The notes below the pieces were generated by a model. The model had not been told where the DNA came from. It saw only the letters and a list, made by a program, of their open reading frames with translations, and did not search any database. A stretch of 49,733 bases of DNA. Source: an uncultured Alphaproteobacteria bacterium (GTDB lineage: Bacteria; Pseudomonadota; Alphaproteobacteria; Bin95). The stretch covers positions 1 through 49,733 of the forward strand of contig CALAHN010000061.1 in assembly GCA_937891825.1 (NCBI GenBank), given 5' to 3'. Positions 43,629-49,733 of the stretch are shown in pieces. Each line of letters begins with the position of its first letter. Within the stretch, counting starts at the first letter, position 1. The translations under genes were made by a program, and so were the position numbers.

Positions 43629-43802
43629 GTTAAGCCAGGGCGAAGGCGGCCTCCGCGTCCGTCTGGAAGGAACCAGCCAGATAAGCATCGATTTTTTGTT
43701 TCGCCCGGCTCTGGATCGAGGGGGCGATTCGTACTGTACTGCCGTCATCGTCGCGATGAAGCGACGCCTGTGCGCCAAAGAGCGCCAGCGGAGGAAAAAA
43801 CA

Positions 43803-44189
43803 ATGCATAAGTGGATCGATCATGTCGTCGTCAGGGTCGCGAACCTGGACGAAGCGATTGCGCACTATACGGACCGTCTCGGCTTTACCGTTACGGAGCC
43901 GCCGGAAGATCAACCCGAACTGGGGTTGAGGCGGGCCGTGCTTGGGCTTGGCGCTTCAGGCACATTTATTGAACTCGCAGAGCCGCTTGGCGCTACCGGC
44001 GACATCGGCAATTCGCTCGCCAAGCGCGGCGAGGGCGTACATCTGGTGGCGCTGGCGGTCGGCGATCTGGCGGCCGCGACGGCTGACCTGAAAGCCCGCG
44101 GCGCTCGAGTGATCGAAGCGAGCGGCCAGGTGTTCCTTCACCCCAAGGAAGGCCACGGCGTGATGTACCAACTGATCGAGCGCACCTGA
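43803..44189 (+). CDS. VOC-family (glyoxalase/epimerase fold) protein
   Basis: A 128-residue vicinal-oxygen-chelate protein with two beta-alpha-beta-beta-beta modules. Candidate metal ligands are H7, E57, H80 and E126, in the order expected for methylmalonyl-CoA epimerase or glyoxalase I. Length and the opening DHVVVRVANLDEAI favour the epimerase/lactoylglutathione-lyase-like group, but the substrate cannot be set. GGAGG lies eight bases before the ATG. It is on the same strand as the sulfur operon, but 174 bases away, so it probably has its own promoter. Confidence 0.85.
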   Translation: MHKWIDHVVVRVANLDEAIAHYTDRLGFTVTEPPEDQPELGLRRAVLGLGASGTFIELAEPLGATGDIGNSLAKRGEGVHLVALAVGDLAAATADLKARGARVIEASGQVFLHPKEGHGVMYQLIERT

Positions 44190-44346: not shown

Positions 44347-45444
44347 ATGGAACGTCGTAAATTTCTGAAAACGGCCGCAGTCGCCGGCTTGGGGGCAACG
44401 GCCGCCGCTTCGACGCTGGCGGCGCCGGCTGTCGCCCAGGGCAAGAAGACACTGACGATCGTCTCGACCTGGCCGCGCGACTTTCCGGGTCTCGGCTTGT
44501 CGGCGCAGCGCCTTGCCGCGCGCATCACGGAACTGTCGGAAGGCCGTCTGACGACCGAATATTTCGCCGCCGGCGAGCGGGTCGGCGCCTTTGACGTGTT
44601 CGACGAAGTCGCCTCCGGCAACAGCCAGGCCTATATCGGCGCCGACTATTACTGGACCGGCAAGCACCCGGGCTGGGCCTACTTCACGGCCGTGCCGTTC
44701 GGCATGACGACGCCGGAATGGAACGCCTGGATCAAGTTCAAGAACGGGCAAAAGCTCTGGGATGAGCTGGCGGGCGAATTCGGCCTGAAGAACATCACCT
44801 GCGGCGGCACCGGCACCCAGATGGGCGGCTGGTTCAACAAGGAAATCAACAGCGCGGCCGATCTCAAGGGCCTGAAGATGCGCATCCCCGGCCTCGGCGG
44901 CACGGTGATGTCGAAGCTCGGCGTCTCGACGGTCTCCCTGCCCGGCGGCCAGATTTACGAAAACCTGGTTTCCGGCGCGATCGAAGCGACGGAATGGGTC
45001 GGCCCGTACAACGACTACTTCATGAAATTCTACGAAGCCGCGCAGTTCTACTACACCGCCGGCATGCATGAGCCGGGCGGCGGCCTTGGCTTCGGCATGA
45101 ACGCATCCTGGTGGGGCTCGCTGACCAATTGGGAAAAGGCGGTCATCACCGCCGCGTGCAATGAAGAAATGGCCGCGCAGATCGAGGAAGCGGCCGCGAA
45201 CAACGGCATTTATCTTGCTCGGTTGGTCAAGGATCACGGCGTGAAACTGCGCGACTTCAGCGACGACACCTGGGATGCGTTCGGCGATGCATCCGCGGAA
45301 GTCTTCGAGGAAACCCGCAATCACTCCCCGCTCGCCGCGAAAATCAACGACGATTATCAGGCGGCGCTCCGTGAGATCGGCGGCTTCCGGAAAGTCGCGG
45401 AGATTGCCTTCTCGAACCAGCGCAATCGCGTGCTGGGCATCTAA
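44347..45444 (+). CDS. dctP: TRAP transporter periplasmic substrate-binding protein (TakP-like)
   Basis: A 365-residue binding protein exported by a Tat-type signal (RRKFLK at 3-8, hydrophobic to about 29, cleavage near AVAQG). Substrate-site features of the TakP/mannitol-chloroaromatic branch are Q158 (TQMGG), R179 in KMRIPGLGG, LPGGQIYE, and E216-W217 in ATEWVGPYND. In TakP the equivalent residues hold a 2-oxoacid with a cation, so a 2-oxoacid or similar carboxylate is a fair inference. GGGAGG precedes ATG 44347. A strong terminator follows it, which would let binding protein be made in excess over the permease. Confidence 0.95.
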   Translation: MERRKFLKTAAVAGLGATAAASTLAAPAVAQGKKTLTIVSTWPRDFPGLGLSAQRLAARITELSEGRLTTEYFAAGERVGAFDVFDEVASGNSQAYIGADYYWTGKHPGWAYFTAVPFGMTTPEWNAWIKFKNGQKLWDELAGEFGLKNITCGGTGTQMGGWFNKEINSAADLKGLKMRIPGLGGTVMSKLGVSTVSLPGGQIYENLVSGAIEATEWVGPYNDYFMKFYEAAQFYYTAGMHEPGGGLGFGMNASWWGSLTNWEKAVITAACNEEMAAQIEEAAANNGIYLARLVKDHGVKLRDFSDDTWDAFGDASAEVFEETRNHSPLAAKINDDYQAALREIGGFRKVAEIAFSNQRNRVLGI

Positions 45445-45570: not shown

Positions 45571-46566
45571 ATGATCGACGCCAGCATTGGCGATGTCCGC
45601 ACCGGCAGCCTTGGCGCGCCGAACGTCGTAAGGGCGTTCGGGTGGTCCATCCTGGCCGTCATGGCGGCCTTCCTGATCGACAATATACTGACCGTCGGTT
45701 TCGACATGCCGGGGAGTTCTGCGGCGCTGTCTGGCGGCGGGGCCGGCGCCTGGGCGCAGCTTGCGATCTACGCGCTGGGCGTCGCCTGCGCGGTCGCCTA
45801 TGTCGCGCGGCGGCCGGAGACCGCCTTGCGGTCCGACGCCAGAACGATCACCCGCGTGAACGCCTATCTGATCCGCGGCTGTTTCTGGGCCGTCGTGTTT
45901 GTCGGCGTCGTCGACGCCTCGATCGCCTTCATGCGGATCGAGAACCTGCTGACGCCCTTCTTCAACGAGGCGACGGTGCAAGCGCTCGGCCGGGCGCGCT
46001 ATGTCGGCCTGAACGTGCATTTCCCCTTGATCGTGCTGGCTTTTATCGTCGCAGCGTTTTCCCGCACGCTTGGCTTCACCTGGCTGACGCTGCTGATCGT
46101 GCTGGCTGAACTGCTGATCGTGCTGTCCCGTTTCATCTTCTCCTACGAGCAGGCCCTGATGGGCGATCTGGTGCGCTACTGGTACGCGGCGCTGTTCCTG
46201 TTCGCGTCCGCCTATACCTTGATCGAGGAAGGCCACGTTCGGGTCGACGTCTTCTATGCAGGCATGGCGCGGCGGACCAAGGGCTTCGTCAACGCCATCG
46301 GGTCCGTCGCGTTGGGGGTCAGCACCTGCTGGGTCATCCTGGCCATCGGCTTTCATGGCAAGCAATCGATCATCAACAGCCCCGTCGCCAATTTCGAGGT
46401 CACACAGACCGGCAGCGTCGGCATGTTCATCAAGTATCAGATGGCAGTTTTTCTCGCGGTCTTCGGCGTGACCATGATGATCCAATTTGTCAGCTTCCTG
46501 TTCGAAGCCGTGGCCGACATCCGGGACGAACCCGGTCATGTCGATCCGGCCTCGTCAACGCTGTAA
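45571..46566 (+). CDS. dctQ: TRAP transporter small permease with extra N-terminal membrane part
   Basis: A 331-residue membrane protein. The C-terminal part (about 150-320) is a typical four-helix DctQ, with LSRFIFSYEQALMGDLVRYW and the conserved EEGHVRVDVFY segment. The first 150 residues are extra. They hold about three further hydrophobic helices (near 22-42, 60-82 and 103-125) linked by charged loops. Ordinary DctQ proteins have about 160-200 residues, so this one is almost double. It lies after the terminator and is followed by dctM within 15 bases. The role of the additional helices is unknown. Confidence 0.9.
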   Translation: MIDASIGDVRTGSLGAPNVVRAFGWSILAVMAAFLIDNILTVGFDMPGSSAALSGGGAGAWAQLAIYALGVACAVAYVARRPETALRSDARTITRVNAYLIRGCFWAVVFVGVVDASIAFMRIENLLTPFFNEATVQALGRARYVGLNVHFPLIVLAFIVAAFSRTLGFTWLTLLIVLAELLIVLSRFIFSYEQALMGDLVRYWYAALFLFASAYTLIEEGHVRVDVFYAGMARRTKGFVNAIGSVALGVSTCWVILAIGFHGKQSIINSPVANFEVTQTGSVGMFIKYQMAVFLAVFGVTMMIQFVSFLFEAVADIRDEPGHVDPASSTL

Positions 46567-46581
46567 CCGGGGCGCCGCATC

Positions 46582-49242
46582 ATGGAACTTCTGTTTATCG
46601 CCATGCTGATGCTGCTGATGGCCCTGGCGCTCGGGTCCGGGTTTCCCGTGGCGTTCGCCCTGCCCGGCGCGGCGATCATCACCATCGGGACGGCCGCTGC
46701 GACTGGCTACATCTTTGCGGGCGACGTCGACGCCTACTTCCTTTCCGGCGGGCCGCGCCAGTGGCTTTCCGCCGGCGTCACCAATCTCCGCGGGGTTTAT
46801 TGGGAGGTCGAGCGGGATACCCTGATTGCGATTCCGCTTTTCATCTTCATGGGCATCATGCTCCAGCGGTCGAAGATCGCCGAGGATCTGCTGGTGACGA
46901 TGGCTCAGCTTTTCGGCGGCATTCCGGGCGGTCTCGGCATCTCGGTCGTATTCGTCGGCGCCCTTCTGGCCGCGACCACCGGCATCGTCGGCGCGACCGT
47001 CGTCGCCATGGGACTGATTTCGCTGCCGACCATGCTGCGCAACAAATATTCCCCGGCGCTCGCGACCGGGACGATCGCGGCGTCGGGCACGCTCGGCCAG
47101 ATCATTCCGCCGTCGATCGTGCTGATCATCCTGGCCGATCAGCTCTCCTCCGCCGCCGATCAGGCGAGCACGCTGCGCAAGGCCCTGCACAAGCAGGCGA
47201 CCGGCGAGATCAGCATGCCGTCGATCTTCGACGTGACCTCGACAAGCGCTGGCGAAATGTTCCTTGGCGCGCTCGTTCCGGGCCTGCTGCTCGTCGGCCT
47301 CTATATGCTGTTCATTCTGGTCTTCGCGATCGTCCGGCCAAGCGCCGCGCCGCCGGTGCCCTATGAAGGCGCGCGCAATCGCCAGTTCTGGGTCAATGTC
47401 GTCCTGACGCTCGTCCCGCCGCTTGCGCTGATCTTCCTGGTGCTCGGCTCGATTCTGATGGGCATCGCGACCGTCAACCAGGCTGGCGCGATCGGCGCCG
47501 CCGGCGCCATGATCATGGCGGGCTACCGCCTGCCGACCGAACGCCGCGGCGCCTTCCTGCCAGCGTTGCTCGCCCTGATCGCGCTTGGCGGCATCGCCTT
47601 CGCCCTCGCCAATTATGAAATGAACGTCAAGGCGATCAACTCGCCCGATGACGCCGTCGGCATTCAAATCGGCCTGGCCTCGGTCATCCTGCTTCTCGTC
47701 GCGCTGGCATGGAGCGGCGCGCGGGTCCTCAGGATCGACCGCACCCTGCAAGGGGTCATGATCGAAACGGCGAAAACCACCTCGCTGGTGTTCATCATTC
47801 TGCTCGGCGCCGCCATGCTGACCGCCGCCTTCCGGGCGTTTGGCGGCGAAGAGCTGGTGCGCGACTTCCTGAATTCGCTGCCCGGCGGGTTCTGGACGCA
47901 GTTCATCATCGTCATGGCCGTGATTTTCGTCCTCGGCTTCTTCCTCGACTTCATTGAAATCGCGGTCGTCGTCGTGCCGATCGTCGCGCCGATCCTGCTG
48001 TCCGACCCGGAAGCGAACATCACCGCTGTGTGGCTTGGCGTGATGATCGGCCTGAATATCCAGACCTCGTTCCTGACGCCGCCATTCGGCTTCGCGCTGT
48101 TCTACCTGCGCGGCGTCGCGCCGGCGGTCGTCAAGACGATCCACATGTACAAGGGCGTCATCGCGTTTATCGCCCTCCAACTTGTGGCGCTCGTCGTCGT
48201 CGGGCTCATGCCGCCGCTGGTGAATTACCTGCCCTACCGGGTCAGCTACCTGTCGGAAACCGCGCCGCCGCCGCGCAATCCTTCCCTGCAATATTGCCTG
48301 TCGGACTATACCCGCGAAAAGCTGCAGGCGGATGGCGGGGCGACGGCCGCCGCTATCGCAGCGGCTGAGCGGCTTGACCTCGCCAGCCTGCCGAAAAACC
48401 TCGCAACCAGGCTGACCGAGAGCTTCGGCGAGGGCAAAGCCGCGATCGCGGCGATCGACGACCTGTTTGCAGCCCGCGCCAAGATCGACGCCGCCGCCGG
48501 CGCCTACAAGCCGCTGCAGAGGGAGGTCCGCAATCTGGAAAAGGATATCCGGAAGATTGAGGTCGAGCAGAAGGACCTGAGGCTGCAACTCGCCCGGCTG
48601 CGCGATCCCGAGACCGCAGCGGACCGCAAGGCCGAGATCGATATCGAGCTGGAGCGACTTGAAGCCGAAAAGGCGGCGCTGGCAAGCCAGGTTCCCTTGG
48701 AATGGGCGGACGTCAGCACGGGCTTCAAGCAACTCCTGAAAGCCGAAACCCAAGCCCAGCGGGCGTTTGAACGCGGCGCCGACAGTTCCTATGAGCCCGT
48801 TCAAACTGTCCTGAAGATACTCAACGCGAACGCCGACTTCGCCGCCATGGCGGACGACCTGAATGGCTTGCGGACCGTGCTGACGGCCGGCGATTACGAC
48901 CGCGCGCTGGACGCTTTCGTCGACGTGTCGCAGCGCTTCGGCGCGATCGAGGGCAGCGATCCCGTGCAGTCCGCGCTCACCCGCGCGGCCCGTTCGCTGC
49001 GTGAGCGGTCGCGGGACCCGGAGAAAGCGATGGAGGCCTACGAAAAGGCGCTAGAGGCCTACCAGCAGCAGACGGCATGGCGAAGCGCGGCGAGCACAGC
49101 CGTTCAAAGCGATCTCCAAGCCTATGAAGCGGCGCTCAAGGGGACGTTGGGCGTCCGGTTGCAGCAGCGGATGACCCGCGAACAGGCGCTCTTCGTGGCC
49201 GCCTGCACGGCCAATCACCGCGACGTCTCGCTGAACTTTTAG
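46582..49242 (+). CDS. dctM: TRAP transporter large permease with long C-terminal coiled-coil tail
   Basis: An 886-residue fusion-like protein. Residues 1-555 are a DctM/SiaM-type permease with many helices and conserved segments FVGALLAATTGIVGATV, SGTLGQIIPPSIVLII and IGLNIQTSFLTPPFGFALFY. An enlarged central loop (about 192-215, 230-300) is present. Residues 560-886 form a soluble extension with no hydrophobic span, predicted helical, with heptad-like charged repeats (about 640-710, LEKDIRKIEVEQKDLRL) and repeat helices after 720. DctM proteins usually have 420-450 residues, or about 600 in this branch, so the tail is unusual. A perfect hairpin follows the stop. Confidence 0.92.
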   Translation: MELLFIAMLMLLMALALGSGFPVAFALPGAAIITIGTAAATGYIFAGDVDAYFLSGGPRQWLSAGVTNLRGVYWEVERDTLIAIPLFIFMGIMLQRSKIAEDLLVTMAQLFGGIPGGLGISVVFVGALLAATTGIVGATVVAMGLISLPTMLRNKYSPALATGTIAASGTLGQIIPPSIVLIILADQLSSAADQASTLRKALHKQATGEISMPSIFDVTSTSAGEMFLGALVPGLLLVGLYMLFILVFAIVRPSAAPPVPYEGARNRQFWVNVVLTLVPPLALIFLVLGSILMGIATVNQAGAIGAAGAMIMAGYRLPTERRGAFLPALLALIALGGIAFALANYEMNVKAINSPDDAVGIQIGLASVILLLVALAWSGARVLRIDRTLQGVMIETAKTTSLVFIILLGAAMLTAAFRAFGGEELVRDFLNSLPGGFWTQFIIVMAVIFVLGFFLDFIEIAVVVVPIVAPILLSDPEANITAVWLGVMIGLNIQTSFLTPPFGFALFYLRGVAPAVVKTIHMYKGVIAFIALQLVALVVVGLMPPLVNYLPYRVSYLSETAPPPRNPSLQYCLSDYTREKLQADGGATAAAIAAAERLDLASLPKNLATRLTESFGEGKAAIAAIDDLFAARAKIDAAAGAYKPLQREVRNLEKDIRKIEVEQKDLRLQLARLRDPETAADRKAEIDIELERLEAEKAALASQVPLEWADVSTGFKQLLKAETQAQRAFERGADSSYEPVQTVLKILNANADFAAMADDLNGLRTVLTAGDYDRALDAFVDVSQRFGAIEGSDPVQSALTRAARSLRERSRDPEKAMEAYEKALEAYQQQTAWRSAASTAVQSDLQAYEAALKGTLGVRLQQRMTREQALFVAACTANHRDVSLNF

Positions 49243-49301: not shown

Positions 49302-49733
49302 TTAGAACGTGGCTTCCATCAAACTGTCGAACGCCGCCTGGGCGGAGCCTGGACGGTCGGCCGGATCGCGCGCGGTCATCGCCGCAAGCCAGCGCGCCAG
49401 CGCCGGCGGCGCGCCGAAAGCCTCGTCGATGGGCTGGGGCCGACCCACCGGAAGAATGCCGGCCAGCATGCGGTAGAAGATGACGCCGATCGCATAAAGG
49501 TCCGTTCGGAAATCGACGCCAGCCGTACTTGCCGTCTGCTCCGGGCTCATGAAGCCCTCGGTTCCGAGCCAGCCGCTTTCCCGGGTCAGCCGCAGATCCG
49601 GATGGCGGCAGAGCCCGAAATCCACGATGCGCACGTCGCCGACGCCTGCCTCCGAGCGCTCCGCGCAGGCGGAAAGCATCAGGTTTGCCGGCTTCAAGTC
49701 CCGATGCACGACGCCGGCGCGATGGATCGCCTG
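49302..49733 (-). CDS. serine/threonine protein kinase, C-terminal part (cut by window edge)
   Basis: The visible 143 residues are the C-lobe of a eukaryotic-type (Hanks) kinase. The catalytic loop is VVHRDLKPANLML, the metal loop is VDFGLC, the activation segment is GTEGFMSPEQ, and the F-helix is DLYAIGVIFYRMLAG. The conserved arginine lies in DPADRPG. The stop comes soon after the kinase fold, so no C-terminal sensor domain is present. The N-lobe lies beyond the right edge. It converges with the TRAP operon. Targets are unknown. Confidence 0.92.
   Translation of the reverse strand, partial: QAIHRAGVVHRDLKPANLMLSACAERSEAGVGDVRIVDFGLCRHPDLRLTRESGWLGTEGFMSPEQTASTAGVDFRTDLYAIGVIFYRMLAGILPVGRPQPIDEAFGAPPALARWLAAMTARDPADRPGSAQAAFDSLMEATF

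Follow-up and report, generated by a model that had tools for sequence, protein, structure and literature searches.

The window, a stretch of DNA of 49,733 nucleotides, carries the genes of a TRAP transporter close to one end. A solute-binding protein (DctP), a small permease subunit (DctQ) and a large permease subunit (DctM) are encoded there by the following features, in which residue numbers refer to DctM unless DctQ is named:

44347..45444, + strand: DctP, a TakP-like (COG4663-type) solute-binding protein with a twin-arginine signal (Pfam DctP, E 6e-44)
45571..46566, + strand: DctQ, enlarged small permease subunit, 331 aa; PF04290 covers DctQ residues 181-314 only
45571..46050, + strand: N-terminal extension of DctQ, about 150-160 aa, with approximately four extra hydrophobic helices (hydropathy and alignment)
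46582-49242, + strand: DctM gene, a single open frame of 886 aa
46582..48234, + strand: membrane body of DctM, residues 1-551 (PF06808, E 9e-61; fold match to PpSiaM, 7qha_B)
about 48241/48247-49239, + strand: C-terminal tail of DctM, residues about 554/556-886, a predicted periplasmic all-helical domain (AlphaFold2 model), kept in 92/92 aligned proteins
48295..48297, + strand: codon of Cys572, invariant in 92/92 and kept in further tails; first member of a proposed disulfide pair
48394..48684, + strand: long helices 605-672 and 676-701, a possible antiparallel coiled-coil hairpin (DSSP of the AlphaFold2 model)
48703..49140, + strand: helical bundle part, residues 708-853 (AlphaFold2 model), of which 751-836 are largely absent in the relative L139
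49204..49239, + strand: Cys875 and the end C-x3-HRD[ILV]SLxF-stop; Cys875 and Phe886 are each present in 92/92

The match of DctM to PF06808 (206 bits against a cut-off of 23.8) is restricted to the membrane part of the protein, and the score with TIGR00786 (259.5) falls slightly below the cut-off of 268.45. In an alignment with PpSiaM, the C-terminus of that protein pairs with residue 553 of DctM, leaving approximately 330 residues beyond it. The initial annotation of this DNA, made from the sequence alone, had described a long C-terminal extension past the last DctM helix, and this holds: the extension lies in one frame and is without a membrane span, with a maximum 19-residue hydropathy mean of 0.58. 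Its description as rich in Lys/Glu heptads was loosely right at best, as the tail is an Ala/Leu/Arg/Glu-rich sequence (A 18.7%, L 11.2%, R 8.5%, E 8.2%) with only 4.8% lysine.

A scan of 84,980 species genomes recovered 80 full-length relatives, all with the tail in the same frame. The search for homologues that had been suggested at the outset thus yielded full-length tailed proteins, 55-67% identical to the window's, in Rhodobacterales, Rhizobiales, Sneathiella, SAR116, Granulosicoccus and other Gammaproteobacteria, and SAR324. Among 385 genomes of the class, 30 (~8%) contain a true tail match, a 31st match being a weak fragment. The mean frequency of the most common residue is 0.50 in the tail versus 0.80 in the body (92 aligned proteins), with some tail residues near-invariant, and nine columns are invariant among 77 diverse tails. 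The tail is well beyond chance, given its presence in all 92 aligned proteins and in about 8% of the sampled genomes of the class together with these invariant columns. A frameshift, an assembly fusion or a separate downstream gene read together with dctM would require the same fusion in each of the 92 proteins and in many lineages, and the full-length tail matches in three genome samples all lie inside frames of 838-960 aa. The same-frame tail across relatives refutes an artefact of this kind, whose probability we regard as negligible. The initial annotation had considered that the tail might be either a common, characterised feature of its TRAP branch or the product of a frameshift. It is indeed common in the branch, but there is no frameshift, and no description of such a DctM tail or of an enlarged DctQ was found in the literature searched, which covered few subscription journals.

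When the body only was used as the query, the relatives separated into proteins with 63-79% identical bodies, which are tailed, and proteins with ~50% identical bodies, which are untailed, apart from a single contig-end fragment (L140). Sixteen of the 18 untailed relatives examined end 0-9 residues after the aligned membrane part (approximately residue 555), so that the expectation that a DctM protein ends at the membrane is true of this sister group; the other two have 20 and 83 extra residues, without the tail domain. A branch with 100/100 support sets the 21 tailed bodies of a maximum-likelihood tree apart from the others. The tailed DctM proteins are one clade, in which the tail is inherited with the M subunit. 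Free-standing tail proteins were not found in the genome samples, in which weak matches outside the clade look like chance helical ones, and no tail was found on plasmid, phage or viral contigs.

The second unusual feature of the locus is the N-terminal extension of DctQ, whose first ~150 residues contain approximately four additional hydrophobic segments across 66 aligned DctQ proteins. Untailed sisters have an ordinary DctQ, mostly ~180-240 aa from stop to stop, without the extension. Among the 385 genomes, 31 have the DctQ extension and 30 the tail, with both present in 29. One of the two features is missing in three further genomes (G020, G049 and G121), all of them contig-end cases, in which either the start of DctM runs off the contig (G020, G049) or DctQ is cut (G121). 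The DctM tail and the DctQ extension are therefore an inseparable package. The extension belongs to no Pfam family, and it and the tail are two domains outside both Pfam and NCBIfam. A duplicated DctQ was considered as the source of the extension and rejected, as HHalign detected no similarity between them; none was found between the extension and the DctM tail either.

AlphaFold2 models the tail on its own as a confident all-helical domain (pLDDT 96.0, pTM 0.87), an outcome of the structure prediction that the initial annotation had proposed. When the full DctM was modelled, pLDDT in the tail was mostly 86-96 and the body was less confident. According to DSSP of the model, short helices are followed by the long pair at 605-672 and 676-701, by a helix at 708-748 and then by shorter ones, the last of which holds Cys875; the conserved C-terminal end is modelled less confidently than the rest. 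Residues 605-701 could form a coiled-coil hairpin, and to that extent the earlier proposal of a coiled-coil tail may stand. An extended coiled coil over the whole tail does not agree with the model, in which only these residues suit a hairpin and approximately two thirds of the tail is made of other helices in a compact fold. A natural short tail of 242 aa (L139 / L186, on contig 167 of genome G096) has lost most of residues 751-836 while retaining both cysteines and the C-terminal end. The loss of ~85 residues in this protein marks 751-836 as the less essential part of the tail.

A Foldseek search of the PDB with the tail gave no match at E<=0.001. With VIA-align, model residues ~190-285 match common four-helix bundles (PsbQ, Hpt and the McpS ligand domain) at Z about 9-11, which is within the range of unrelated helical proteins. 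The tail model thus appears to be without a clear known whole-domain fold, although the absence of a match is not proof of a new one. A TPR or EzrA-like domain was rejected, the matches being scattered, weak and typical of helical proteins. TPR_12 scores 21.7 in the window's tail alone (cut-off 30.1), and no TPR family is among the 25 most matched in the 77 tails, so that the domain is not TPR across the family. TatT is not among the matches listed by Foldseek and VIA-align, and no internal repeat was found in the tail.

Cys572 and Cys875, near the two ends of the tail, are the only cysteines of the window's DctM. Exactly two cysteines are present in 77/77 diverse tails, while those of the body vary from 0 to 3, and further tails keep both, including the short one of L139 and one divergent tail. 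For a cysteine pair so strictly fixed at either end of a domain in the periplasm, a disulfide is the simplest explanation, and Cys572-Cys875 is probably a bond that staples the ends of the tail together. Among the 92 aligned proteins, His879 is conserved at 93% and Asp881 at 96%; as His879 is near Cys875, a metal site is possible. With Phe as its invariant last residue, the ...HRD[ILV]SLxF end is reminiscent of C-terminal recognition peptides, such as signals of the PDZ or outer-membrane type, which have Phe at their end.

Placement of the tail on the periplasmic side follows from solved M subunits. PpSiaM is N-out/C-out in the cryo-EM structure of PpSiaQM (PMC9971032), and the authors of FnSiaQM put its C-terminus in the periplasm, noting no direct observation (PMC11801797). 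Residues 439-553 of DctM align with the solved M subunits from the TPP hairpin motif through the last helix, and the body model superimposes on 7qha_B with a TM-score of 0.77 by target length (Foldseek). Foldseek ranks only TRAP M structures among its best matches to the body (E 2e-8 to 6e-7), in keeping with the IT-superfamily elevator fold. Lys518 and Lys524 before the last helix, each at least 80% conserved, fit a cytoplasmic flank. Given the C-out topology of the solved proteins and the alignment of 439-553, the tail should be periplasmic. Homology fixes how the core is oriented, and the side on which the C-terminus lies is therefore unaffected by the additional helices in the middle of the protein.

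At 49302-49733, on the opposite strand, is a fragment of a Ser/Thr protein kinase gene that runs off the contig end. Its adjacency had led to the suggestion that the tail is phosphorylated by the kinase, and it is the one point in favor of a cytoplasmic tail serving as a phosphorylation or docking target. We consider this very improbable. Solved homologues are C-out, and a periplasmic tail would be beyond the reach of a cytoplasmic kinase; the tail also holds an invariant cysteine pair, the kinase gene has the opposite orientation, and a kinase homologue was found in none of 80 related loci.

DctP scores above the cut-off for the TIGR01409 Tat signal. It was aligned to 2hzk, 4pet and 5cm6, and its nearest solved relatives include TakP and a named ketoacid-binding protein. 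The residues that contact Na+/pyruvate in TakP have been named (PMC1839085), and in an HMMER alignment to 2hzk DctP retains Tyr100, Gln156, Arg177, Glu214, Trp215 and Glu240 of TakP. A 2-oxoacid or related monocarboxylate is the likely substrate, based on the conservation of these six ligand residues. The window has the P-Q-M order, as do nearly all relatives with contigs that extend far enough, and only DctP, DctQ and DctM recur around the 80 relatives. A glyoxalase-superfamily gene (methylmalonyl-CoA epimerase-like, below cut-off) is present upstream of dctP at 43770-44189 in the window; no such gene was found next to related operons.

We hypothesize that the tail folds as a periplasmic domain and marks out a separate subtype of TRAP transporter, in which an enlarged scaffold positions DctP; we place the probability of this reading at approximately 0.5. 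In this reading, Cys572 and Cys875 would form a disulfide that staples the domain's two ends together above the last membrane helix. Packing of the tail against the DctQ extension would create an enlarged periplasmic and membrane scaffold. With less certainty, this scaffold may capture or position DctP over the transport domain, possibly as a helix-swapped dimer of the kind described for TakP (PMC1839085). Positioning of DctP in this way would raise the efficiency of its delivery for cation-coupled import of a 2-oxoacid or similar monocarboxylate. The initial annotation had named docking or scaffolding as a possible role, which a long helical extension fits. A stronger version, in which the disulfide-stapled M domain and an eight-helix DctQ form a permanent dock that retains a (dimeric) DctP and replaces delivery by free diffusion, is put forward only tentatively.

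The positioning of DctP by the scaffold is favored at about even odds, and its main rival is a tail whose role within the QM complex is structural alone, bracing the enlarged DctQ and M scaffold or making QM dimers, with no DctP contact. We regard such a brace as possible but doubtful. It agrees with the obligate pairing with the DctQ extension, with a tail whose middle evolves quickly while its ends are conserved, and with the relative that lost most of 751-836 yet kept both ends and both cysteines; it leaves unexplained the need for a 330-residue soluble domain, given that sister systems work in its absence. Evolution in the middle of the tail is approximately sixfold faster than in the body (mean distance 1.49 vs 0.26), which disfavors a docking surface that is both large and conserved. 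In untailed sisters, a similar TakP-like DctP is used without a tail, and this counts against the positioning of DctP by the scaffold. A mirror-tree comparison of tail distances gave partial r of 0.18-0.23 with DctP, the DctQ extension and the DctQ core, singling out no partner. The long helices and the strongly conserved C-terminal end, modelled with lower confidence than the rest, would also suit a tail that links the transporter to another envelope partner (peptidoglycan, or an outer-membrane or sensor protein), with the terminal Phe end as recognition peptide. This is improbable, with no conserved neighbor except P-Q-M and family matches to generic helical families only.

SiaM of Photobacterium profundum (7QHA) and of Haemophilus (8THI) and IseQM (9PYM) resemble this DctM in body fold and last helices, but they end right after the last helix, whereas this DctM adds a 330-aa domain and extra middle helices. 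TakPQM, the 2-oxoacid TRAP transporter of Rhodobacter sphaeroides, is like this system in its binding protein, TakP being a close relative of DctP. In the untailed sister systems DctP is similar, but DctQ is short and the tail is absent. Among known arrangements, TPAT (TatT-TatP-TatQM) of Treponema pallidum comes closest, with a helical periplasmic accessory module near the TRAP solute-binding protein (PMC5812351). TatT is a separate TPR lipoprotein, whereas the domain described here belongs covalently to M and shows no consistent match to TPR. The tailed subtype bears on how a solute-binding protein, above all a dimeric one, is retained and handed over. In marine Alphaproteobacteria, TRAP transporters are major importers of organic acids, and to our knowledge the M subunit is bare in all solved TRAP transporters. 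Whether the binding protein can stay on the transporter could be tested directly in a widespread tailed subtype with an enlarged DctQ.

The source genome encodes approximately 20 DctM-type proteins, and the tail profile and the tail sequence match only that at 46582-49242. Two other long DctM frames of this genome (C88 and C135) were examined and are fused QM frames in which the tail is absent. Two tailed DctM systems (L003 and L014), 59% and 49% identical to that of the window, occur together in genome G119.
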